This document shows, piece by piece, positions 19,427 through 30,831 of a stretch of 64,000 bases of DNA. Origin of the DNA: an uncultured Alphaproteobacteria bacterium. Its GTDB lineage: Bacteria > Pseudomonadota > Alphaproteobacteria > Rhizobiales > Aestuariivirgaceae. The number at the start of each line of letters is the position of its first letter. The stretch's first letter is position 1. A program made the translations under genes and the position numbers. Where the stretch lies: positions 1 through 64,000 of the forward strand of contig CALMWF010000039.1 in the NCBI GenBank assembly GCA_937873445.1. The letters run 5' to 3'. The notes beneath the pieces are model-generated. The model did no database searches. It was not told the origin of the DNA and saw only the letters and a program-made list of their open reading frames with translations.

Positions 19427-19443
19427 TGATCGGGCGCCGATCA
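19427..19443. terminator. Weak convergent hairpin between the P-ATPase and the TadE pair
   Basis: TGATCGG and CCGATCA form a perfect 7-base stem with a GCG loop. It lies across the end of the TadE-like gene and just after the ATPase stop. No U-tract follows on either strand, so intrinsic termination is uncertain. Confidence 0.3.
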
Positions 19444-20133
19444 GGGATTGGCAAGATTGGTGCACGCCGCCGTATTCGAAGCGGTCAGCTGGCAGCCAAG
19501 TTTCATGGACGCGCGCGGCCGCTGAATGGTGTCCTGCGTCAGCTTCATGGTCTGGCTTGGCATGATCTTCTTGCCGAACAGGGTGAAGATCCAGGGCTTG
19601 AAGTTCACACAGACGCGGGCCAGAACCAGGTCGTTGTATTTCGTCGTGTCGTTCAGGCTGTTGGCCCCCATCAGGGCGGAATAGTTGGTATTGATGTTTT
19701 CGGCTGTTGGCGTCGTGGTGGCAGGCGCGGTGTTGCTTCCGCACACCGAATTGCTGCTCTTGACGCTCCACGCCACGGACGCCGTGTATTTGTCATCCCA
19801 GCTTGTGCTGCCCTGATTGGGAGCCGAGGCATTATAGGTCTTGGTAAGGCCGTAGAACTCGACACCAATGTCGGCTGTGGGGGTGTTTCCAATGATCATG
19901 AACACCGCGTTCCGGTAATCTTCAAGATCCGTTTTCAAGACCACATTCTTGTTCTGGGTTACCAGGTCGGCCATCACGCCCGAGGCATAGGTCACCTGGC
20001 GGTTGACCGAAATCAGCGATGTCACATCGACCATGCCGAAGAACAGCAGCATGAGCATGGGCATGATCAGAGCAAATTCAATTGCCGCCATGCCGCGTGT
20101 ATTGCGCAGATACTGGGCAAGGGAGTGTTTCAT
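19441..20133 (-). CDS. TadE/TadG-like minor pilin (second of the pair)
   Basis: A 230-residue pseudopilin-like protein of the Tad pilus. Its N-terminus has the TadE signature RGMAAIEFALIMPMLMLLFF, with the prepilin-like Glu followed by a membrane helix. The rest is a predicted periplasmic domain with several Cys residues. ATG 20133 overlaps the stop of the upstream TadE-like gene (ATGA), which favours it over GTG 20145. It is probably processed by the CpaA-type peptidase encoded nearby and acts in pilus initiation or adhesion. Confidence 0.87.
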   Translation of the reverse strand: MKHSLAQYLRNTRGMAAIEFALIMPMLMLLFFGMVDVTSLISVNRQVTYASGVMADLVTQNKNVVLKTDLEDYRNAVFMIIGNTPTADIGVEFYGLTKTYNASAPNQGSTSWDDKYTASVAWSVKSSNSVCGSNTAPATTTPTAENINTNYSALMGANSLNDTTKYNDLVLARVCVNFKPWIFTLFGKKIMPSQTMKLTQDTIQRPRASMKLGCQLTASNTAACTNLANP

Positions 20134-20750
20134 GTGGCCGAACACGAATTGGAGGTTGCGAAGGGTTCGTTTCGGAAAACCGAAATGCCGCGCAGCCGCC
20201 GGTAATTGATGCTGATCGGCTTGTTGTCCTTGTCCTTGGTGTTGAGCGTGAAATTGCCCAAGACCTTGTCCATGAAGGGGAAGGCAAAATTGTAATCATA
20301 GGTGGCGATGATCGCCATCGGCTTGGACTTGTCACCACAGGAAAAGGAACTGTTCTTGACGCCGCTGTTATCAGCCTTCAGGCCGATGTCGAGCGAATTT
20401 GGGGTGGAACTCTTGAGCGCGGCGAAGGTGTTGGCGGGCGCCACATAAACCGTGACTTTGGAACAGTCCATGAGAAACCGCGCCACGCCGTTGGCGCAGA
20501 TGGAATTCTTGAAAACGGTGGGGCTAGTCTTGGTGTCCTGGGCGTTGCCGGTGCGGATCGCCCGTGAAGCCTTCTGCACCGCCGCCTGCAGGGTATATTC
20601 GGTAAACAGCATGACCCCGGTTTCAAACATGCAACCGAGAAACAGCAGGAAGGGCCCACCCACGAAGGCGAACTCAACGGCGGAAAATCCGCTTTCCGAT
20701 ACACCAAACCGCCTGGCTGCAGCGCGCAGACCGGCCCTGAACCGTCCCAT
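20130..20750 (-). CDS. TadE-like minor pilin (first of the pair)
   Basis: A 206-residue protein with the prepilin-like segment ESGFSAVEFAFVGGPFLLFL near residues 19-38 and then a periplasmic region. I chose ATG 20750 (MGRFRAGLRAA). The in-frame extension to 20843 would reach into an AT-rich promoter-like region and adds no family sequence. It is coupled to the next TadE-like gene by an ATGA overlap. A perfect 14-base palindrome lies about 77 bases upstream of the start. Confidence 0.85.
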   Translation of the reverse strand: MGRFRAGLRAAARRFGVSESGFSAVEFAFVGGPFLLFLGCMFETGVMLFTEYTLQAAVQKASRAIRTGNAQDTKTSPTVFKNSICANGVARFLMDCSKVTVYVAPANTFAALKSSTPNSLDIGLKADNSGVKNSSFSCGDKSKPMAIIATYDYNFAFPFMDKVLGNFTLNTKDKDNKPISINYRRLRGISVFRNEPFATSNSCSAT

Positions 20751-20826
20751 GTGGGTCTCCGCTGGGCAATAAACCTCTGACGGCTCAGAAATATCAGCCG
20801 GAATTTTATAAAACTCTAACGGCTTT

Positions 20827-20840
20827 GCTAAAATTTTAGC
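20827..20840. promoter_or_regulatory. Perfect 14-bp AT-rich palindrome upstream of the TadE pair
   Basis: GCTAAAATTTTAGC is fully self-complementary. It lies in the 111-base spacer between the stand-alone pilus-domain gene and the TadE pair, a local AT-rich island. It could be an operator for a dimeric regulator or part of a promoter; neither is shown. Confidence 0.4.
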
Positions 20841-20861
20841 CAATCCCGGGCAGCGGCAAAT

Positions 20862-21356
20862 TTACTGCGGGGCGGCACCATCGGCAGGCGGCGGCGGCGC
20901 AACCGTTGTGGGCGTGCTGCGGCCCTGGCCCAGGTTCTGCTTCTGGTTAAAGGTATTGGCGATGGCGCTCATATGGCTCGGGTCGTCGCCAACCCGCACA
21001 ATGGACTGGCAATCCGGCATGCAGCTGCTGCTGTAGCGCTTTCCGGCCTTGTAGACCGACACGGTGGCGTCGTTCTCGCGTTCCTTCACCATCACCTCGA
21101 AATTGGCAATCTGATTGCCTTCGGTGTCGAGAATGATCATGTCAGTTTCGCCATAGGCACGGCCATGCACGAAAATCTGCTGCCCCTGAACGGTCACGTC
21201 GGCGATGAAGGGATCGCCAATGACAATGGCGCCCGGCGGGGTCGAAACGCTGAGAAGCTGAGTCCGGTCGGCACTGAGAACGAGCGGCTCGGCGGCGGCA
21301 GCCGGCAGGGCCGACAGGGCAAACAGGGCAGCAGCCACGCACAGGCGGTATTTCAT
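20862..21356 (-). CDS. Stand-alone pilus-assembly N-terminal-domain protein
   Basis: A 164-residue exported protein. The signal peptide KYRLCVAAALFALSALPAAA ends near residue 22. The body (residues about 23-90, GAIVIGDPFIADVTVQGQ to DMIILDTEGNQI) matches the N-terminal domain found at the start of CpaC-type secretins. A Cys-containing segment and a Pro-rich tail follow. ATG 21356 is chosen over the 21380 start because it places the signal peptide at the N-terminus. It has no secretin domain. It probably assists secretin or pilus assembly in the periplasm. Confidence 0.82.
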   Translation of the reverse strand: MKYRLCVAAALFALSALPAAAAEPLVLSADRTQLLSVSTPPGAIVIGDPFIADVTVQGQQIFVHGRAYGETDMIILDTEGNQIANFEVMVKERENDATVSVYKAGKRYSSSCMPDCQSIVRVGDDPSHMSAIANTFNQKQNLGQGRSTPTTVAPPPPADGAAPQ

Positions 21357-21504
21357 GGGTCCAGATCCTCGCAACCTCATCCCCCGTAACTCTTAAGGGG
21401 GCATGACTCGTCGTGCGACAATGCCACGTAAATGGTGAATCAACTGTTTACGATCTGGTCCGGGGCCGGTCGCCCGCCTCGGCCCGGCCGCCAGCGGCAT
21501 ACGG

Positions 21505-21519: not shown

Positions 21520-21576
21520 CGGTCGCCGTGGAAAGGTCTGTCCGGCTCCGCCTTGGGCCGAAGGGACGTTTTGATC

Positions 21577-22077
21577 ATGCTTCAGTCATTGTCGCTTTAC
21601 CTGCTGCCATCACTGCTGATGGTCGCCGCCGCCAGCGATGCGCTTTATCTGCGCATTCCCAATTGGTTGACGATTCTGACGGCGCTCGCCTTTTTCCCCA
21701 TGGCCCTGATGACCGGCATGCCCATGGCAGAGCTCGGCTGGCATGTTGTGGCGGGCCTCATCCTGTTCTTCGTCGGCTTTGCGTTTTTCCAGCTGCGGCT
21801 GTTTGGCGGCGGTGACGCCAAACTCATGGCCGCCGCCGGCCTGTGGTTTGGCACGGCGCAGCTGGTGCCCTTTCTTTTCTATACGGTTCTCGCGGGCGGC
21901 ATTCTGGCGGCGGGCGTTGCCTTTCTGTCCATGGTGGGCCTCCATCTCGAGATGAAAGCCGAAGAATTCAGCAAGAAAATCAGCGGCATAAAGCCCTCCG
22001 TGCCCTACGGCATAGCGCTGGCGGCGGGTGGCATTCTGGCGTTGCGCGACAGTTGGTGGCTGCAGGTCGCTGGTTAA
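21577..22077 (+). CDS. cpaA: Prepilin peptidase CpaA/TadV
   Basis: An inner-membrane aspartic protease of 166 residues that cleaves Flp-type prepilins and TadE/F pseudopilins. The first active-site Asp lies in AAASDALYLRIPNWLT. The second is in the conserved GGGDAKLMAAAGLWFG, near residue 78. About five hydrophobic segments are present. ATG 21577 was chosen over the TTG at 21553. It is first in the plus-strand cpa/tad operon. No flp pilin precedes it, which is unusual for this arrangement. Confidence 0.93.
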   Translation: MLQSLSLYLLPSLLMVAAASDALYLRIPNWLTILTALAFFPMALMTGMPMAELGWHVVAGLILFFVGFAFFQLRLFGGGDAKLMAAAGLWFGTAQLVPFLFYTVLAGGILAAGVAFLSMVGLHLEMKAEEFSKKISGIKPSVPYGIALAAGGILALRDSWWLQVAG

Positions 22078-22172: not shown

Positions 22173-23015
22173 ATGAATATGAGTAAGATGCGCATCATCA
22201 TCCTGGCTGCGGCAGTGGGGTCGGCGGCCATGGCGGCCATGCTGGCCAATGGCATGATCGGCAAAAAGCCTGAAAAGCAGGTGGTCGAAGTCAACAAGGT
22301 TGAAACCATTCCGGTTCTCGTGGCGGCCAAGGATATCGGGCTGGGCGACAAGCTGGTGGCCGGCACCGTGATCTGGAAGGACTGGCCCAAGGCCAATGTC
22401 ACCGGCTCCATGATCACCCAGGATGCCATGCCGGACGCAATCAGCGCCATGGAAAAGAATCGCGCCCGCTCGGCCTTCGCCAGCGGTGAAACCATCATGG
22501 AACAGAAGCTCCTGAAGGCCGGGGATGCAGGCTTCATGAGCGCCATCGTGCGCAAGGGCATGCGGGCCATTTCGGTCGGCATCTCGGTCACCTCCTCGGC
22601 GGGCGGCTTCATCCTGCCCAATGACAAGGTTGATGTCCTGCTCACCCGCCAGCTTGATGGGCAGAGCCCGTCCGGCGGCAAGAACGTGGTCAGCGAAACC
22701 GTGCTGACCAATGTGCGCGTGCTCGCCATCAATCAGACCTACAAGCAGGATCCCACCGGTGAAAAGGTGGCGCTGGAAGATGGCAAGACCGCCACTCTCG
22801 AACTGACGCCGCAACAGGCTGAGGTCATTTCCACCATCGAATCGGTTGGTGAACTGTCTCTGGCGCTCCGGTCCATCGCCGACAGCGAAGGCAAGACGCC
22901 TGATACCGATCTTCCCGCCCTGAGCGACCGCTTCTCCGGGGGCAAAAACAACAAGAAGGGCACTGATCTCATGATCATGCGCTATGGCGTCCCGTCCTAT
23001 ACGGCGTATCGCTGA
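22173..23015 (+). CDS. cpaB: Pilus assembly protein CpaB/RcpC
   Basis: A 280-residue protein anchored by an N-terminal membrane segment (RIIILAAAVGSAAMAAMLAN). An SAF-type domain follows (IPVLVAAKDIGLGDKLVAGT), and then the RcpC/CpaB domain (GMRAISVGISVTSSAGGFIL). The family is periplasmic and thought to aid the secretin. ATG 22173 is used; ATG 22179 is also possible. The cpaC frame starts 9 bases after the stop. Confidence 0.93.
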   Translation: MNMSKMRIIILAAAVGSAAMAAMLANGMIGKKPEKQVVEVNKVETIPVLVAAKDIGLGDKLVAGTVIWKDWPKANVTGSMITQDAMPDAISAMEKNRARSAFASGETIMEQKLLKAGDAGFMSAIVRKGMRAISVGISVTSSAGGFILPNDKVDVLLTRQLDGQSPSGGKNVVSETVLTNVRVLAINQTYKQDPTGEKVALEDGKTATLELTPQQAEVISTIESVGELSLALRSIADSEGKTPDTDLPALSDRFSGGKNNKKGTDLMIMRYGVPSYTAYR

Positions 23016-23024
23016 GAAAGGCTG

Positions 23025-24449
23025 ATGGCAATGTCGTCCGTTTCATTTAAACCAGCCGGTTACGCCAAGAAGGCCAATCGCTTTGCTGTTCTCGCCGCCC
23101 TGTCGGTAGCGGCCATAACGGGCCTGTGGCTGGCGGGTGTGCCCTCGGGCCATGCCTCCGACCTTGATGTCTCGGTGGCCGATCAGGCGTCGGGCGCCCA
23201 CTTCCTGCGCATCGGGCTGAACAAGTCGGTGGTCATTCGCCTGCCGGCCGAGGCCAAGGACGTTCTGGTTGGCAATCCTGACATCGTTGATGCCGTGGTG
23301 CGCACCAAGAACACGGCCTATCTGTTTGCCCGCGCCATCGGCCAGACCAACATCTTCTTCTTCGATGGCAGCGGCTAGCAGATCCTCAATCTCGATCTTG
23401 AGGTTGCCCAGGATACCACTGCCATCCAGAAACTGATCAAGCGCACCCTGCCGGGTTCGCGCATCACGGTTGACACCGTCGGCAACAGCGTTGTGCTCGG
23501 TGGTGTGGCGGCCAATGCGGCCGAAGCCAAGACCGCTGAAGATCTGGCCAAGAAGTTTGGTGGCGACGTTCTGAACACCATCAAGCTTGCCGGTGATGAC
23601 CAGGTCATTCTCAAGGTGCGCATTGCCGAAGTGCAGCGTGATGTCATGAAGCAACTGGGCGTGGACCTGTCGAAGACAGCGCTCACCCTGGGCAAATTCG
23701 CCTTTGGCATCAACGGCATGTATCCCTTCACCAACGGCTACAGCGGCGCCGTCCTGTCGTCCAGCTATGACGGCAAGAAATTTGATATCAACGCCGCTGT
23801 CGCCGCTCTGGAAGGCAACGGCCTGATGCGCACTCTGGCCGAACCCACCCTGACCGCCATTTCCGGCCAGGGCGCCCAGTTCCATGCCGGTGGCGAATAC
23901 CCCTACACGGTCTGCGATGCCTCCGCCGCCGTGCGTCAGTGCACCGTAGAATTCAAGAAATACGGTGTCCAGCTTGACTTTACCCCGGTGGTGCTCAACG
24001 AGGGCCGGATCAATATGAAGATCCACACCGAGGTATCGGAACTGGCGTCCATTTCCGGCGCCGGTGTGCCGGTGATCAATACCCGCAACGCCGAAACCAC
24101 GCTGGAAATGCCCTCCGGCGGCTCCATGATGCTGGCTGGCCTGATCAAGGACAGCGTCCGCCAGAATCTCAACGGCGCGCCGGGGTTGAAGCAGTTGCCG
24201 GTTCTCGGCGCCCTGTTCCGCAGCCGTGACTACGTTCAGAACGAAACCGAACTGGTGGTTCTGGTGACACCCTACATTGTGGGTCCGACCAGCGAGAAGC
24301 AGATGACACTGCCGACCGACCGGCTCAACCCCGCCACCGAAAAGGACCAGCTTCTGTTCGGCCGTCTGAACAAGATTTATGGCGCCCCCGGCAGTCAGGC
24401 GGATCCCTCCGCCGCCTATACCGGCAGCGTCGGTCACATCATCGAGTGA
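23025..24449 (+). pseudogene. cpaC: Secretin cpaC interrupted by an in-frame TAG
   Basis: The outer-membrane secretin of the Tad pilus, present as one frame of 475 codons including the final stop, but broken at codon 118 by TAG (23376-23378). The first part (117 residues) has a signal peptide-like start, then the pilus N-terminal domain ending IFFFDGSG. The frame resumes at once (QILNLDLEVAQDT) and carries the whole secretin domain to 24449, including VPVINTRNAETTLEMPSGG. A single change from AAG, CAG or GAG would explain it. TAG is an ordinary stop elsewhere here (cpaF, tadC, the 640-2313 gene). It could be a recent null mutation, a sequencing error or readthrough. An internal GTG at 23493 would give a secretin without export signal. 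Confidence 0.85.
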
Positions 24450-24469: not shown

Positions 24470-25141
24470 ATGTTGAACCCTTTGAAATCCTCTCTCCTCC
24501 GCGGCCTCGCCCTGCCAGCCATTCTGGCTGGCTTTCTGGGCGGCTGCGCCCTGACCACGCCCGACCCGCTGGAAAACGCCTATGTGCCCTTCTCCGGGTC
24601 CGAGAAATTTCCCATTGAGATGGCCAGCGGCCCGGTGACGCTCGCCGTTCCGGCCAGCCGGGGCGGTCTTCAGCCGGCCCAGGTGAATACCGTGGCAGGC
24701 TTTGCCCGCCAGGCCTTGGGCAATGCCACGTCCACCATCACGGTGCGGCGTCCCTCCTCCGGCGGCCAGGCCACGGCCCGCAGCATTGTTGACGTGATGA
24801 CCGCCCAGGGCATTTCCCGCAGCCGCATTAAGCTGGCCACCTATCCCGGCCCGGCTTCGGCACCGGTGGAAGTCTCCTATGTCCGCACCTATGCCAGGAC
24901 CGCCCCGTGCGGCGACTGGTCGCGCGATCTGAACAGCACCTGGAATAACGAGACGGCGCCCAACCACGGCTGCGCGCTCCACTCCAATATTGCCGCCATG
25001 ATCGTCAATCCTGAAAATGTTGTGACGCCAGCACCCGTGAGCACGGCACCGGCCGCCTCGCGCATGTCCGGCATCCAGCGCGTGATGGACGTGACGAGCA
25101 TGGTTTCCACCTCCGCGCCGTCGGCCGGCGGCACGCCCTGA
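24470..25141 (+). CDS. cpaD: Pilus assembly lipoprotein CpaD
   Basis: A 223-residue outer-membrane lipoprotein of the Tad system. The signal peptide ends in the lipobox LGGC (near residue 24). A CpaD-type domain follows, with RPSSGGQATARSIVDVMTAQ and, further on, CGDWSRDLNSTWNNE and NHGCALHSNIAAMIVNPENV, the conserved CpaD core. ATG 24470 has GGAG seven bases upstream and places the signal peptide correctly. The alternative at 24446 overlaps the cpaC stop. Confidence 0.92.
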   Translation: MLNPLKSSLLRGLALPAILAGFLGGCALTTPDPLENAYVPFSGSEKFPIEMASGPVTLAVPASRGGLQPAQVNTVAGFARQALGNATSTITVRRPSSGGQATARSIVDVMTAQGISRSRIKLATYPGPASAPVEVSYVRTYARTAPCGDWSRDLNSTWNNETAPNHGCALHSNIAAMIVNPENVVTPAPVSTAPAASRMSGIQRVMDVTSMVSTSAPSAGGTP

Positions 25142-25164
25142 TTTTGTCCACAGGATCGCCTGAA

Positions 25165-26430
25165 ATGACCGCTTCAGCTCATAGTTTCTCCGCCCACGGT
25201 TCTGACCAGCACCCGGTGGTCATGGTGCCGCATGTGAACATTCACAACTTCTGCGACAATCAGCAGACCGGTGAAGTCTTGCAGCAGGCGGCGATGGACC
25301 GGCGCATGGGCCATGCCCATGTTTCCATCCAGCTCGGCGGTCTTGCGGCGGCCATCCAGGTCTACCAGCATCAGCCCACCCCCAATGTGCTGGTGGTGGA
25401 AACCCACGCCGGGCGCGAACAGCTTCTGGCCGAACTGGGCAAGCTGGCCGAAGTCTGCCAGCCCACCACCAAGGTCATCATCATCGGCCACGTCAATGAC
25501 GTGATTCTCTATCGCGAACTGATGCGCCAGGGCATCAGCGAATACATTGTGGCGCCGGTCAGCGCCCTGCATTACATCGAGTCCATTGCCAGCCTTTACA
25601 AGGATCCCAAGAGCGACCCCCTCGGCCGCATCTTTGCCTTTGTCGGCTCCAAGGGCGGTGTGGGGTCATCCACCATCGCCCACAACATCGCCTATCGGCT
25701 GTCCGGCAAGCACAGTGTCGAAACCGTCATCACCGACCTCGACCTTGCCTTCGGCACCGCCGGGCTCAATTTCAATCAGGATGCCAACGGTGGCATGATT
25801 GAAGCCCTTGGTTCGCCCGACCGCGTTGACTCCACCCTCATTGACCGGCTGCTGACCAAGCTGGGCGGCAAGCTGAGCCTGCTCGGCGGCCCCTGTCAGG
25901 TGGACCGTGAATTTGCCATTGAAGCCCACTCCATGGAAATCGTCCTCAATGCCCTGCGCCGCAGTGTGCCGTGCATCGTGGTTGACGTGCCCAATGTCTG
26001 GGCACCCTGGGTGCGCTACACCCTGATCAATGCCGATGAGGTCATCATCACCGCGACCCCGGAACTGGCCAGCCTGCGCAATACCAAGAACATTGTCGAT
26101 CTTCTGAAACAGGCCCGGCCCAACGATCACCTGCCGCGCATCATTCTCAACCAGGTGGGCGTGCCCAAGCGGCCGGAAGTCTCGGCAGCCGATTTTGCCA
26201 AGGCCGTGGGCATCACGCCAGAGCTTGTCATTCCCTATGACCCCATGGTGTTCGGCACGGCCCAGAGCAACGGCCAGATGCTGTTTGAGGTTGGTCCCAA
26301 GTCCAAGTCCGCCGAACAGCTTGATGTTCTGGCCGACATTCTCTCCGGCAACAACAAGACCGCTCCCAAGAGCGGAAAATTCAATCTCAATGAAATCTTT
26401 CAGAAGCTGCCCAGCCTGAGGAAGAAATAA
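25165..26430 (+). CDS. cpaE: Pilus assembly ATPase-like protein CpaE/TadZ
   Basis: A 421-residue cytoplasmic localisation factor for the Tad machine. A degenerate receiver-like domain (about residues 15-135, with VIIIGHVNDVILYRELMRQG) precedes a MinD/ParA-type domain. The P-loop there is a variant, SKGGVGSSTIAHNIA. DLDLAFGTAGLNF and VVDVPNVWAPW form the following switch-like motifs. ATG 25165 is preferred to the TTG at 25144. cpaF starts 3 bases downstream. Confidence 0.93.
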   Translation: MTASAHSFSAHGSDQHPVVMVPHVNIHNFCDNQQTGEVLQQAAMDRRMGHAHVSIQLGGLAAAIQVYQHQPTPNVLVVETHAGREQLLAELGKLAEVCQPTTKVIIIGHVNDVILYRELMRQGISEYIVAPVSALHYIESIASLYKDPKSDPLGRIFAFVGSKGGVGSSTIAHNIAYRLSGKHSVETVITDLDLAFGTAGLNFNQDANGGMIEALGSPDRVDSTLIDRLLTKLGGKLSLLGGPCQVDREFAIEAHSMEIVLNALRRSVPCIVVDVPNVWAPWVRYTLINADEVIITATPELASLRNTKNIVDLLKQARPNDHLPRIILNQVGVPKRPEVSAADFAKAVGITPELVIPYDPMVFGTAQSNGQMLFEVGPKSKSAEQLDVLADILSGNNKTAPKSGKFNLNEIFQKLPSLRKK

Positions 26431-26433
26431 GCG

Positions 26434-27960
26434 ATGTTCGGCAAGAGAAGCGATAGTGGCGTTTCTGCCCCGGTGCCTCAGGCTCCGGTCCCGGCTGCGC
26501 CTGCGGTCCCGGCCTCGGGCCTGGCCCCCCCCGCTGCCCCCGGTTTCATTCCCGACCTGCCCATGCCGCAGCAGGGCCAGGCGCCGGGTCAGTTCCCCGG
26601 CAGCCCGCAGCCGCCGCGCCCCGCGCCCCAGCCTGCTGCGCCGCGCGCGCCCGCCATGATGCGGCATCGCTCTGAAAACTACTATGACATCAAGGGCACC
26701 ATCTTCAACGCCCTGATCGACGCCATCGACCTCACCCAGCTGGGGCAGCTCGACCGCGATGCCGCCCGCGACGAAATCCGCGACATCGTCAATGAGATCA
26801 TCACCCTCAAGGATGTGGTGATGTCCATTGCCGAGCAGGAAGAACTGCTTGAGGACATCTGCAACGACGTGCTTGGCTATGGCCCGCTCGAGCCGCTGCT
26901 CGCCCGCGATGACATCGCCGACATCATGGTCAACGGCGCCGCCACCACCTTCATCGAAGTCGGCGGCAAGATGGAGAAAACCGGTGTGCGCTTCCGCGAC
27001 AACACCCAGCTTCTCAACATCTGCCAGCGCATCGTGAGCCAGGTGGGCCGCCGCGTCGACGAGGCAAGCCCCATCTGCGACGCCCGCCTGCCGGACGGTT
27101 CCCGTGTCAACGTCATCGTTGGCCCCCTGGCCATTGACGGCCCCGCCCTCACCATTCGTAAATTCAAGCGCGACCGCCTGAAACTCTCCGACCTGGTGAA
27201 GTTCAAGTCGATCACGCCGGAAGGTGCCACCATCCTCGAGATCATTGGCCGGGTGCGCTGTAACGTCCTGATCTCCGGCGGTACCGGTTCCGGTAAGACC
27301 ACGCTGCTCAACTGTCTCACCGGTCACATCGATCACGACGAACGCATCATCACCTGCGAAGATGCCGCCGAACTGCAATTGCAGCAGCCCCATGTGGTGC
27401 GCCTTGAAACCCGCCCGCCCAACCTTGAGGGCGAGGGCGCCATTTCCATGCGCGATCTGGTCAAGAACTGTCTGCGCATGCGTCCCGAGCGGATCATCGT
27501 CGGCGAAGTCCGCGGCCCGGAGGCCTTCGACCTCCTCCAGGCCATGAACACCGGTCACGACGGTTCCATGGGCACCCTCCACGCCAACAGCCCGCGTGAA
27601 GCCCTGTCGCGTCTCGAATCCATGATCACCATGGGCGGCTTCTCGCTGCCGTCCAAGACCATCAAGGAAATGATCACCGGTTCCATTGACGTGATCGTCC
27701 AGGCGGCGCGCCTGCGTGACGGTTCGCGCCGCATCACCCACATCACCGAAGTGATCGGCATGGAAGGTGATGTCATCATCACCCAGGATCTCTTCGTCTA
27801 TGAAATCACCGGTGAAGACGCGGCCGGCAAGATCATTGGCCGTCACCGCTCCACCGGCATTGCCCGGCCGCATTTCTGGGACCGTGCCCGCTATTACAAT
27901 GAAGAGCGCCGTCTCGCCGAGGCCCTTGAAAAGGCCGAAATGCGCAACGACCAGGATTAG
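26434..27960 (+). CDS. cpaF: Pilus assembly/secretion ATPase CpaF/TadA
   Basis: A hexameric type II/IV secretion ATPase that powers Tad pilus assembly, 508 residues. A Pro/Ala-rich N-terminus of about 75 residues precedes the N-domain ([20 protein letters not shown]). Walker A is [13 protein letters not shown] (about residue 280). The Asp box and Walker B region are [10 protein letters not shown] and [19 protein letters not shown], followed by [19 protein letters not shown]. It ends in TAG, which shows that this stop codon is used normally. Confidence 0.96.
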
Positions 27961-27985: not shown

Positions 27986-28981
27986 ATGAATTTCGGCGGC
28001 GATCTGCAAAATACAGCCTTCGTCGTGATGGTCGCCATCGCGGTGGGCGGTGTCGCGCTGGCGCTGCTCTATCCGCTCTTTGCCAACGAAGCCAAGAATG
28101 AGCGCATCAAGGCGGTTGCCAACAGCCGCAATGCCAGTTCCAACCTGCGCAACCGGGTGGAAAACGAAAGCAAGGAACGCCGCAAGCAGGTTCAGGAATC
28201 CCTGAAACAGATCGAAGAGCGCGAGCGCAAGCGCAAGAAGATCACGTTGCGCACCCTCATTGCCCAGTCGGGTCTCGACATTTCGGTGCGCCAGTTCTGG
28301 ATATTTTCCGCGGCCCTGGGTGCCGGCATGGCCATTGTCCCGGCGGTGTTCGGCCTGCCTCTGCTCATTTCCGCAGGCCTTGCCTTTGTCTTCACCTTCG
28401 GCTTTCCCCGCTGGTTTCTGGGCTTCCTGCGCCGCCGCCGGCAGGACATCTTCCTGCGCGATTTCGCCGACGCCATCGACGTGATGGTGCGTGGTCTCAA
28501 GGCCGGCCTGCCGGTGTCAGACGCCATGAAGGTGATTGCCAACGAAACCGGTCCGCCCGTCGGGCCTGAATTCACTGAAGTGGTGGAAGGTCAGCGCGTC
28601 GGCATTTCCATCGATCAGGGCATTGAACGCATGGTCGAGCGCATGCCCCTGGCCGAGGTCAACTTTCTTGCCATCGTCATGGCCATCCAGTCCAAGACCG
28701 GCGGCAACCTGTCAGAAGCGCTGGGCAATCTGTCCAAGGTTTTGCGCGACCGCAAGAAAATGAAGGCCAAGATCAAGTCGGTCAGCCAGGAAGCAAAATC
28801 CTCTGCCGCCATCATCGGTGCCCTGCCGTTCTTCATCATGGGCATGATGACCTTCCTGAATCCGACCTATCTGGCACCCATGTTCAACACCTCCATCGGC
28901 CACATGCTGATGATCGGCAGCGGTGTGTGGATGCTGATGGGCGTTCTGGTCATGCGTAAAATGATCAATTTCGATTTCTGA
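27986..28981 (+). CDS. tadB: Inner-membrane platform protein TadB
   Basis: A 331-residue GspF-domain protein, one of the paired inner-membrane platform proteins of the Tad system. An N-terminal membrane helix and a charged cytoplasmic stretch (RKQVQESLKQIEERERKRKK) come first. Two more hydrophobic segments, the GspF domain (DFADAIDVMVRGLKAGLPVS) and C-terminal helices follow. tadC starts 12 bases downstream. Confidence 0.94.
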   Translation: MNFGGDLQNTAFVVMVAIAVGGVALALLYPLFANEAKNERIKAVANSRNASSNLRNRVENESKERRKQVQESLKQIEERERKRKKITLRTLIAQSGLDISVRQFWIFSAALGAGMAIVPAVFGLPLLISAGLAFVFTFGFPRWFLGFLRRRRQDIFLRDFADAIDVMVRGLKAGLPVSDAMKVIANETGPPVGPEFTEVVEGQRVGISIDQGIERMVERMPLAEVNFLAIVMAIQSKTGGNLSEALGNLSKVLRDRKKMKAKIKSVSQEAKSSAAIIGALPFFIMGMMTFLNPTYLAPMFNTSIGHMLMIGSGVWMLMGVLVMRKMINFDF

Positions 28982-28993
28982 CCGGGAAATATC

Positions 28994-29965
28994 ATGGATC
29001 TGGTTCAGCACTATCTGCAGATGGAAACCGCCATCACCCTTCTGGTGGCGGTGGCTACCTTTGCAACGGTGCTGACCATCGCCATGCCGTATTTTGAAGG
29101 CGACCGGCTGAACAGCCGCATCAAGGGCGTGGTTCAGGAGCGGGAACGCCTGCGCCAGGCCCAGAAGGCGGCCCTTGCCGCCGGTGCCGAAGGCAAGCTG
29201 CGCGACAAGAGCAAGGGCAGCCTGTTCCGCCAGCTCGTCGATCTGTTGAACCTGCGCAAGGTTTTCGAAGCCGAAAGTTCGCGCGAGTTTCTGCGCAAGG
29301 CCGGCCTGCGCAGTGAAAGCCATCTCTTCACCTATCTGGTGATGCGCATGGTCACGCCCATTGCCCTGGGCATTCTTGTGTTCAGCTATTCCTCGGCCTT
29401 CTATGCCGACCGGGTCTCCACCTCCATGCGTCTGGCCATGTCCATGGGTGGTGTCATCGCCGGTTTCTATGTGCCTGCGCTGGTGCTGAAGAACATGATT
29501 TCAAAGCGCCAGGAATCAATCCGGCGCGCCTGGTCCGATGCCCTTGACCTGTTGCTGATCTGCGTTGAATCCGGCATGTCCATCGAGCCCGCCATGACCC
29601 GCGTGGCCCGCGAGATCGGCCGTCAGTCAGTGCCTCTGTCCGAAGAAATGACGCTGACTGTGGCAGAACTGTCCTTCCTGCAGGACCGCCGCAAGGCCTT
29701 TGAAAATCTCGGCAAGCGCGTTGACATCGACACGGTGCGTTCAGTGGTCACCTCGCTCATCCAGGCCGAACGCTACGGCACGCCGCTTGGCACGGCGCTG
29801 CGCGTGCTCGCCCAGGAAAACCGGGAAGCGCGCATGCAGCACGCCGAAAAGAAGGCCGCTGCCCTGCCGCCCAAGCTCACCGTGCCGATGATTCTGTTCT
29901 TCCTGCCGGTGATCTTCGTGGTCATTCTCGGCCCCTCCATCATCATGGTCATGGGCGTGAAATAG
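28994..29965 (+). CDS. tadC: Inner-membrane platform protein TadC
   Basis: A 323-residue partner of TadB. The N-terminal helix (ITLLVAVATFATVLTIAMPY) precedes a charged linker, two membrane helices and the GspF domain (SDALDLLLICVESGMSIEPA). A C-terminal helix ends PVIFVVILGPSIIMVMGVK. It is the last gene of the plus-strand operon and is followed within about 20 bases by a strong hairpin terminator. Confidence 0.94.
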   Translation: MDLVQHYLQMETAITLLVAVATFATVLTIAMPYFEGDRLNSRIKGVVQERERLRQAQKAALAAGAEGKLRDKSKGSLFRQLVDLLNLRKVFEAESSREFLRKAGLRSESHLFTYLVMRMVTPIALGILVFSYSSAFYADRVSTSMRLAMSMGGVIAGFYVPALVLKNMISKRQESIRRAWSDALDLLLICVESGMSIEPAMTRVAREIGRQSVPLSEEMTLTVAELSFLQDRRKAFENLGKRVDIDTVRSVVTSLIQAERYGTPLGTALRVLAQENREARMQHAEKKAAALPPKLTVPMILFFLPVIFVVILGPSIIMVMGVK

Positions 29966-30030: not shown

Positions 30031-30831
30031 TCAGTTGCCGGGGTTGGTGCCGGAAGCCAGCTGCTGCCAGGTGTTGGGCTGGGCCAGCATCTTCTGCAGA
30101 TAGGCCATGTTGGCATCCACCTGGTCGGGTGGCAGGTCGGTGCTGGCAATCTGGCGCGCCTCGTCAAACCGGCCCTGCAGGCCCACGGCCAGTGCCAGGT
30201 TCTGCCGGATCTTCGGATAGGCGCCACTGTTCGGCTGGGCCAGCGCCTGGCGCAGGGTTACCTCGCCGCTCTTGAGGTCGCCGGCCAGCGTCTGTGACAT
30301 GCCCAGATTGTTCAGAACCTGAACCTGACGGGGGCTCATGGCCAAAGCCTTCTGATAGGCGGCCTGCGCTGCCGCATACTGGCCCTGGTCGTCATAGGCT
30401 GACCCCAGGGCATTTTGAACCTGCCAGGTGGCGCCTTGCATGCTGGCGGCCTTTTCCAGCGCGGTCACCGCGCCGCCGCTGTCGCCGGCAGCCAGCAGCT
30501 TCTTGCCATAAAGGGCCTGAACGGTGCCGTCTTCGGGGTGCAGGCTGGCAAGTTTGCCCAGCACCTCGACCTGCCGGTCGCTCTGCCCGATCCGTTCCAG
30601 GGCAGCCACATAGGCAAGGCCGGTGCGCGTGTCGCCGGGGTTTTTCTGCCAGGCATCGCCCAGTTTCACCGTGTCGGACAGTGACGCCTGACTGGTGCTG
30701 GCGGTGTTGACCGGGTCCGGTGAAAGCTGTCCGGCGGTGCGCGACTGGCAGGCCGACAGCGCCATGGCTGCCAGCACAAGCACCATGGCCGCGGAACCCC
30801 GGCGGGGAAGGGCGCTGGCACAGGCACGCAT
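30031..30831 (-). CDS. tadD: Tetratricopeptide lipoprotein TadD
   Basis: A 266-residue protein with a lipoprotein signal ending LSACQ (near residue 28) and several TPR units. Examples are GNL-like VLGKLASLHPEDGTVQALYG and ALGSAYDDQGQYAAAQAAYQ. It is the pilotin-like accessory factor for the Tad secretin in known systems. It converges on tadC. A CtrA-like site lies 55 bases upstream of its start, in the spacer shared with the aminopeptidase. Confidence 0.88.
   Translation of the reverse strand: MRACASALPRRGSAAMVLVLAAMALSACQSRTAGQLSPDPVNTASTSQASLSDTVKLGDAWQKNPGDTRTGLAYVAALERIGQSDRQVEVLGKLASLHPEDGTVQALYGKKLLAAGDSGGAVTALEKAASMQGATWQVQNALGSAYDDQGQYAAAQAAYQKALAMSPRQVQVLNNLGMSQTLAGDLKSGEVTLRQALAQPNSGAYPKIRQNLALAVGLQGRFDEARQIASTDLPPDQVDANMAYLQKMLAQPNTWQQLASGTNPGN

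Follow-up and report, generated by a model that had tools for sequence, protein, structure and literature searches.

A single in-frame amber codon interrupts the Tad secretin gene cpaC in a draft alphaproteobacterial genome

The Tad pilus cluster described here contains a secretin gene, cpaC, with a stop codon in its middle, and we asked whether this is a true lesion of the gene, an error of the draft sequence, or a stop that the cell works around. The window analyzed comprises the first 64,000 nucleotides of contig C39, which measures 155,480 bases. The genome is a 2.58 Mb draft in 47 contigs, estimated to be 98% complete, and its nearest CpaC relatives mark it as Aestuariivirga-like. As the preliminary description stated, the cpaC frame is otherwise open: it spans 475 codons including the stop, begins with ATG, ends with TGA, and carries one internal stop, a TAG at codon 118. 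The codon-usage score per codon is similar on both sides of the TAG, at 0.485 before it and 0.555 after it. The gene is interrupted by one codon, with a frame that is open beyond chance. See Table 1 for the coordinates of cpaC, its parts, and the neighboring genes.

Table 1. Features of the tad cluster in the window
Feature	Coordinates	Strand	Remarks
TadE-like minor pilin	19441..20145	-	intact
TadE-like minor pilin	20130..20843	-	intact
Stand-alone secretin-N-domain protein, CpaI-like	20862..21380	-	intact; Pfam PF13629; CpaI identity inferred
cpaA prepilin peptidase	21553..22077	+	intact
cpaB	22173..23015	+	intact
cpaC, Tad/type IVc pilus secretin	23025..24449	+	475 codons with stop; one internal TAG
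Product if TAG terminates, N-terminal leader and truncated N-domain	23025..23375	+	117 residues; PF13629 positions 3-61/72
In-frame amber codon 118	23376..23378	+	sense residue at 109/109 other loci
Post-stop part, BON and secretin domains	23379..24449	+	earliest in-frame start GTG 23493
cpaD	24470..25141	+	intact
cpaE	25144..26430	+	intact; named from position and ATPase domain
cpaF ATPase	26434..27960	+	intact; TAG terminator
tadB	27986..28981	+	intact
tadC	28994..29965	+	intact; TAG terminator
tadD-like TPR protein	30031..30831	-	intact; named from position and TPR content

The protein read through the stop, with the TAG entered as X, has three recognizable domains. The Pfam family T2SS-T3SS_pil_N (PF13629; 5.6e-20) covers residues 60-127 and spans the TAG, a BON domain scores 2.7e-7, and the Secretin domain (PF00263; 3.5e-42) lies wholly behind the TAG. 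The best solved relatives of CpaC by sequence are 8odn (RcpA) and 8jvb. Read through, the protein matches positions 4-71 of the 72-position PF13629 profile, and the 117-residue product matches positions 3-61; the TAG therefore cuts the N-domain. The product had been described as an exported N-domain of 117 residues. Its length stands and its N-terminal leader was judged by eye, but the domain is incomplete, with about ten profile positions lying beyond the stop. A boundary between two genes at the TAG was rejected, as the N-domain match continues across it and the nearest start codon behind it is 38 codons away. We also considered an antisense gene of 464 codons (23043-24437, minus strand) that covers nearly all of cpaC; it scores 163 compared with 254 for cpaC and is probably a shadow frame.

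The eleven other listed genes of the cluster are open, and their alignments with those of the nearest relative, genome G014, are free of stops and cover most or all of each gene, which bears out the earlier view that the rest of the tad genes are intact. The stand-alone N-domain protein next to the minor pilins is probably CpaI. In the accessible part of a Caulobacter study, CpaI is a small periplasmic protein that has a predicted likeness to the N-terminal domain of RcpA and is modelled against that of CpaC, and CpaC itself is regarded as the pore for the Tad pilus in the outer membrane (PMC13170226). Short frames resembling this protein give weak matches a few kb from cpaC in many relatives. 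Away from the tad cluster, the genome has a TadG-like protein with Tad and VWA domains (locus L172, 3487-4974, minus strand) and two Flp-type pilins (contigs C40:69827-69961 and C17:11557-11688).

Next, we compared cpaC with its relatives. Among the matches listed, 59 of the 61 genomes searched have a CpaC match, this genome included, and the nearest relative, G014, has a CpaC that is 69% identical. No second CpaC was found in this genome at E 0.001 among the matches listed, so a further copy covering for the loss was rejected. Likewise, no internal stop occurs in the best CpaC match of the 58 other genomes, among the matches listed; these best matches include some fragments or other secretins (G009, G031, and G033). 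Stops were present in two weak secondary CpaC match rows, from G054 and G057, again among the matches listed.

An alignment of CpaC from relatives at codon 118 had been proposed as a check, and it returned a sense residue in all 109 other loci: Arg in 35, Gln in 30, Lys in 30, Asn in 7, Thr, Gly, and Asp in 2 each, and His in 1. These 109 are not independent species, as the loci L002-L030 and L061-L140 overlap (L002 and L061, for example), and 14 minus-strand loci of the 110-locus comparison contribute a residue only and no codon. Within the genus, Gln occupies the position in 17 of 29 loci, and the nearest relative has Gln as well. TAG lies a single change away from the sense codons seen in relatives, in agreement with the earlier statement that one substitution would explain it. 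A single step would turn 91 of the 474 codons of the cpaC frame into a stop, and a nonsense change therefore requires no special site.

A few irregularities were seen in the relatives. The cpaC locus L079 has an in-frame stop near its C-terminal end (aligned residue 451) and nowhere else, and locus L136 shows a frame change. One TAA is marked inside each of three matches to other Tad proteins, namely a CpaF match (G035 C80:3069-4523) and two CpaD matches (G005 C76:24137-24745 and G016 C77:16588-17178), which may be mere alignment ends. In genome G031, a member of the same genus that is 93% complete, CpaC and CpaF each gave only a weak partial match, and CpaD gave no match. Judged from these sequence matches, Tad was possibly lost in G031.

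We then scanned 675,480 bases, or 26% of the genome, for mid-gene stops. Each of 28,208 stops was tested for coding-like sequence in the same frame over 40 codons on either side, using codon weights trained on the long frames of a 275 kb sample that probably include the part of cpaC behind the stop. The scan is blind to all frameshifts and to stops that lie no more than 30-40 codons from a gene end. Forty-five stops passed, with the cpaC TAG ranked second (24.7 compared with 25.1 for the first). For 38 of these stops, a potential start codon lies 10 codons or fewer downstream, as in tandem genes, and among the seven with no start codon in that interval the cpaC TAG has the top score. It also ranked first in a smaller scan with a local filter, in which 14 of 11,359 stops passed.

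The 44 other passing stops were assessed in several ways. Fourteen were scanned against Pfam on both sides, including all six others with no start codon within 10 codons, and in none of the 14 was the same Pfam family found on both sides. A further 29 were judged by a nearby start codon and the flanking residues, and for L169:5070 the upstream side alone was scanned. From the 30-codon run, L152:8630 was Pfam-scanned on both sides and L184:10547 was read by eye. Across the 675 kb sample (26% of the genome), these checks upheld no further stop inside a gene.

To gauge the age of the lesion, we counted positions where a 70% outgroup consensus is broken in a single lineage, a weak test that would miss a young lesion. 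Behind the TAG, this genome has 13 lineage-specific changes and G014 has 10; before it, the counts are 0 and 2. Of the 65 outgroup-invariant columns behind the TAG, this genome has lost 2 and G014 has lost 1. With each row left out in turn, this genome has lost 1 of 64 invariant columns, and the range over 30 rows is 0-6. One result leans toward decay: this genome's 13 changes all fall after the TAG, which has a chance of 0.026 if changes are evenly spread along the gene, but their split does not differ from that of G014 (Fisher 0.22). Both the column losses (2 and 1 of 65) and the change counts (13 and 10) fit a young lesion. In this weak comparison with G014, the sequence of the post-stop part gives no clear sign of relaxed selection or decay. 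The amber change is private and very recent, or else it is a consensus error, and a very recent lesion and a read error were among the options in the preliminary description: the stop is absent from 109 other loci and no clear decay accompanies it.

Our preferred explanation, to which we give about an even chance, is a private and very recent nonsense substitution in the sole cpaC, that is, a loss-of-function variant of the strain or population. Under this explanation the ribosome would halt at the TAG through the ordinary release factor 1. The cell would then yield an exported fragment of 117 residues whose N-domain is cut short, and it would have no secretin in the outer membrane; the secretin part would be unmade, or made only from the internal GTG listed in Table 1. 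The Tad pilus would be unable to exit the cell until the allele is removed by reversion or recombination. We infer in this case that the base is real and that Tad pili are lost. One may further speculate that the truncated protein interferes at the joint between CpaI and CpaC.

In favor of a real allele, the rest of the cpaC frame is open, the genome has a single CpaC match among those listed, all 109 other loci carry a sense residue, the scan upheld no further stop inside a gene, and TAG is a working terminator in this genome. In the 275 kb sample, 192 long frames end with TAG in 33 cases, TGA in 128, and TAA in 31, and release factor 1 is present and full-length. Absence of Tad may also be tolerated in the genus, judging from the sequence matches of G031. 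In-frame stops in bacterial genes are common and short-lived, according to the accessible part of PMC7918605. Against a real allele, a base error would yield an identical sequence, and the open genes of a costly machine are equally expected were cpaC whole. Our slight lean toward a real allele, relative to an error, is a judgement and was not computed.

The strongest rival, which we place somewhat short of an even chance, is a consensus error: a wrong or minority base in the draft, while the organism, or most of its population, would carry an intact cpaC. The draft state (47 contigs) fits such an error, and 75 of the 80 nearest named loci, which are mostly Hyphomicrobiales and include Aestuariivirga, come from metagenome assemblies by title. 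The eleven open cluster genes and the lack of clear decay behind the stop are also as expected if cpaC is whole. A stretch of 3,083 bases, including tRNA-Leu(caa), is identical in two contigs (loci L059 and L060; C42 near 10776 and C44 near 10791), which is either an assembly flaw or a true duplication. Furthermore, the cpaC of genus member G033 (L163, C201:1-3970) is split over three frames, both joints containing ambiguous letters, and this broken gene is likely an assembly artefact. Low coverage is documented to create false internal stops, in the part of PMC11017572 available. The scan of 675 kb stands against a consensus error: it upheld no further stop inside a gene, so the assembly does not look error-ridden by this measure, although a lone miscall may have occurred and frameshifts lie outside the scan.

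The next alternative is readthrough, in which the TAG is decoded at some rate, giving enough full-length CpaC for pili while the stop dampens expression. The frame, the codon bias, and the conserved residues all persist beyond the TAG, and the codon after it is CAG, which the preliminary description had taken as a partly leaky context. CARYYA is a leaky stop context from eukaryotic viruses, but the bases after this TAG are CAG ATC and fit its first half only. The proposed search for an amber-suppressor tRNA found none with a CTA anticodon among 39 tRNAs. This set is incomplete, as tRNAs for Trp, His, Ile(gat), Ala(tgc), Gly(gcc), and Arg(ccg) were likewise not found in a draft estimated to be 98% complete; a 40th weak candidate (C30:11086-11161) was rejected, as ARAGORN finds no tRNA there. 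Release factor 1 is intact, the stop is absent from 109 other loci, and a very young lesion also accounts for the lack of clear decay. Readthrough is unlikely, and the earlier suggestion of a readthrough site was not upheld. We regard as very unlikely a more specific version, in which the TAG is kept as a leaky switch: cells would make mostly truncated N-domain that disturbs the CpaI-CpaC joint, with an occasional full secretin, such that few cells would be piliated and offer the receptor for pilus phages.

A working split gene, with the N-domain fragment and a restarted secretin acting as two proteins, is less probable still. Stand-alone CpaI-like N-domain proteins do occur beside Tad loci, as they do here, but the fragment lacks the end of its N-domain, the earliest in-frame start is a GTG 38 codons on with no leader seen after it by eye, and none of the 109 other loci has a stop at this position. 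Least probable of all, to the point of being negligible, is reassignment of TAG to an amino acid, for which nothing speaks but the codon itself, given that release factor 1 is present, that checking upheld no further TAG-interrupted gene among the scan candidates, and that TAG terminates 33 of the 192 long frames. Whole-genome recoding was rejected on this terminator use and release factor 1, as the preliminary description had anticipated; its observation that TAG normally ends cpaF, tadC, and the gene at 640-2313 also holds.

Returning to a real nonsense allele, the locus would be a snapshot of a Tad pilus being lost by one substitution; another member of the genus, G031, has no Tad orthologue in the CpaC, CpaF, and CpaD searches. 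Tad pili serve phage adsorption in Caulobacter, in the accessible parts of PMC11067988 and PMC12607857, and cpaC loss alleles may for this reason be selected. If the base is instead an error, one base of a draft genome makes a whole machine look broken. Either outcome would be unsurprising to a specialist; a nonsense codon private to one genome, or a wrong base, is an ordinary thing in a known gene. A literature search of paper listings found no published report of an amber lesion in cpaC.

In general, the locus resembles the known CpaC/RcpA Tad secretins. It shares their domain order (N-domain, BON, secretin), the gene order cpaB-cpaC-cpaD-cpaE-cpaF-tadB-tadC, and sequence matches to the solved structures 8odn (RcpA) and 8jvb. 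Unlike them, it has one internal amber codon that interrupts the reading frame; as assembled, cpaC is a broken member of the CpaC/RcpA family. The amber product is, like CpaI in the portion of PMC13170226 that describes it, short, presumably exported, and N-domain-like. However, it lacks the end of the domain, and the CpaI-like gene of this cluster is separate and intact. False pseudogenes from assembly error, to the extent that PMC11017572 was accessible, offer a parallel in showing one internal stop in a draft with open neighbors, whereas no high density of internal stops was seen in the 675 kb sampled here. Nonsense-interrupted bacterial genes, which include strain-level pseudogenes and the short-lived stops in the available part of PMC7918605, likewise have a single in-frame TAG in a frame that is otherwise conserved, and the example given there is also a polymorphism between TAG and a sense codon; the cpaC TAG, in contrast, is known from one genome only.
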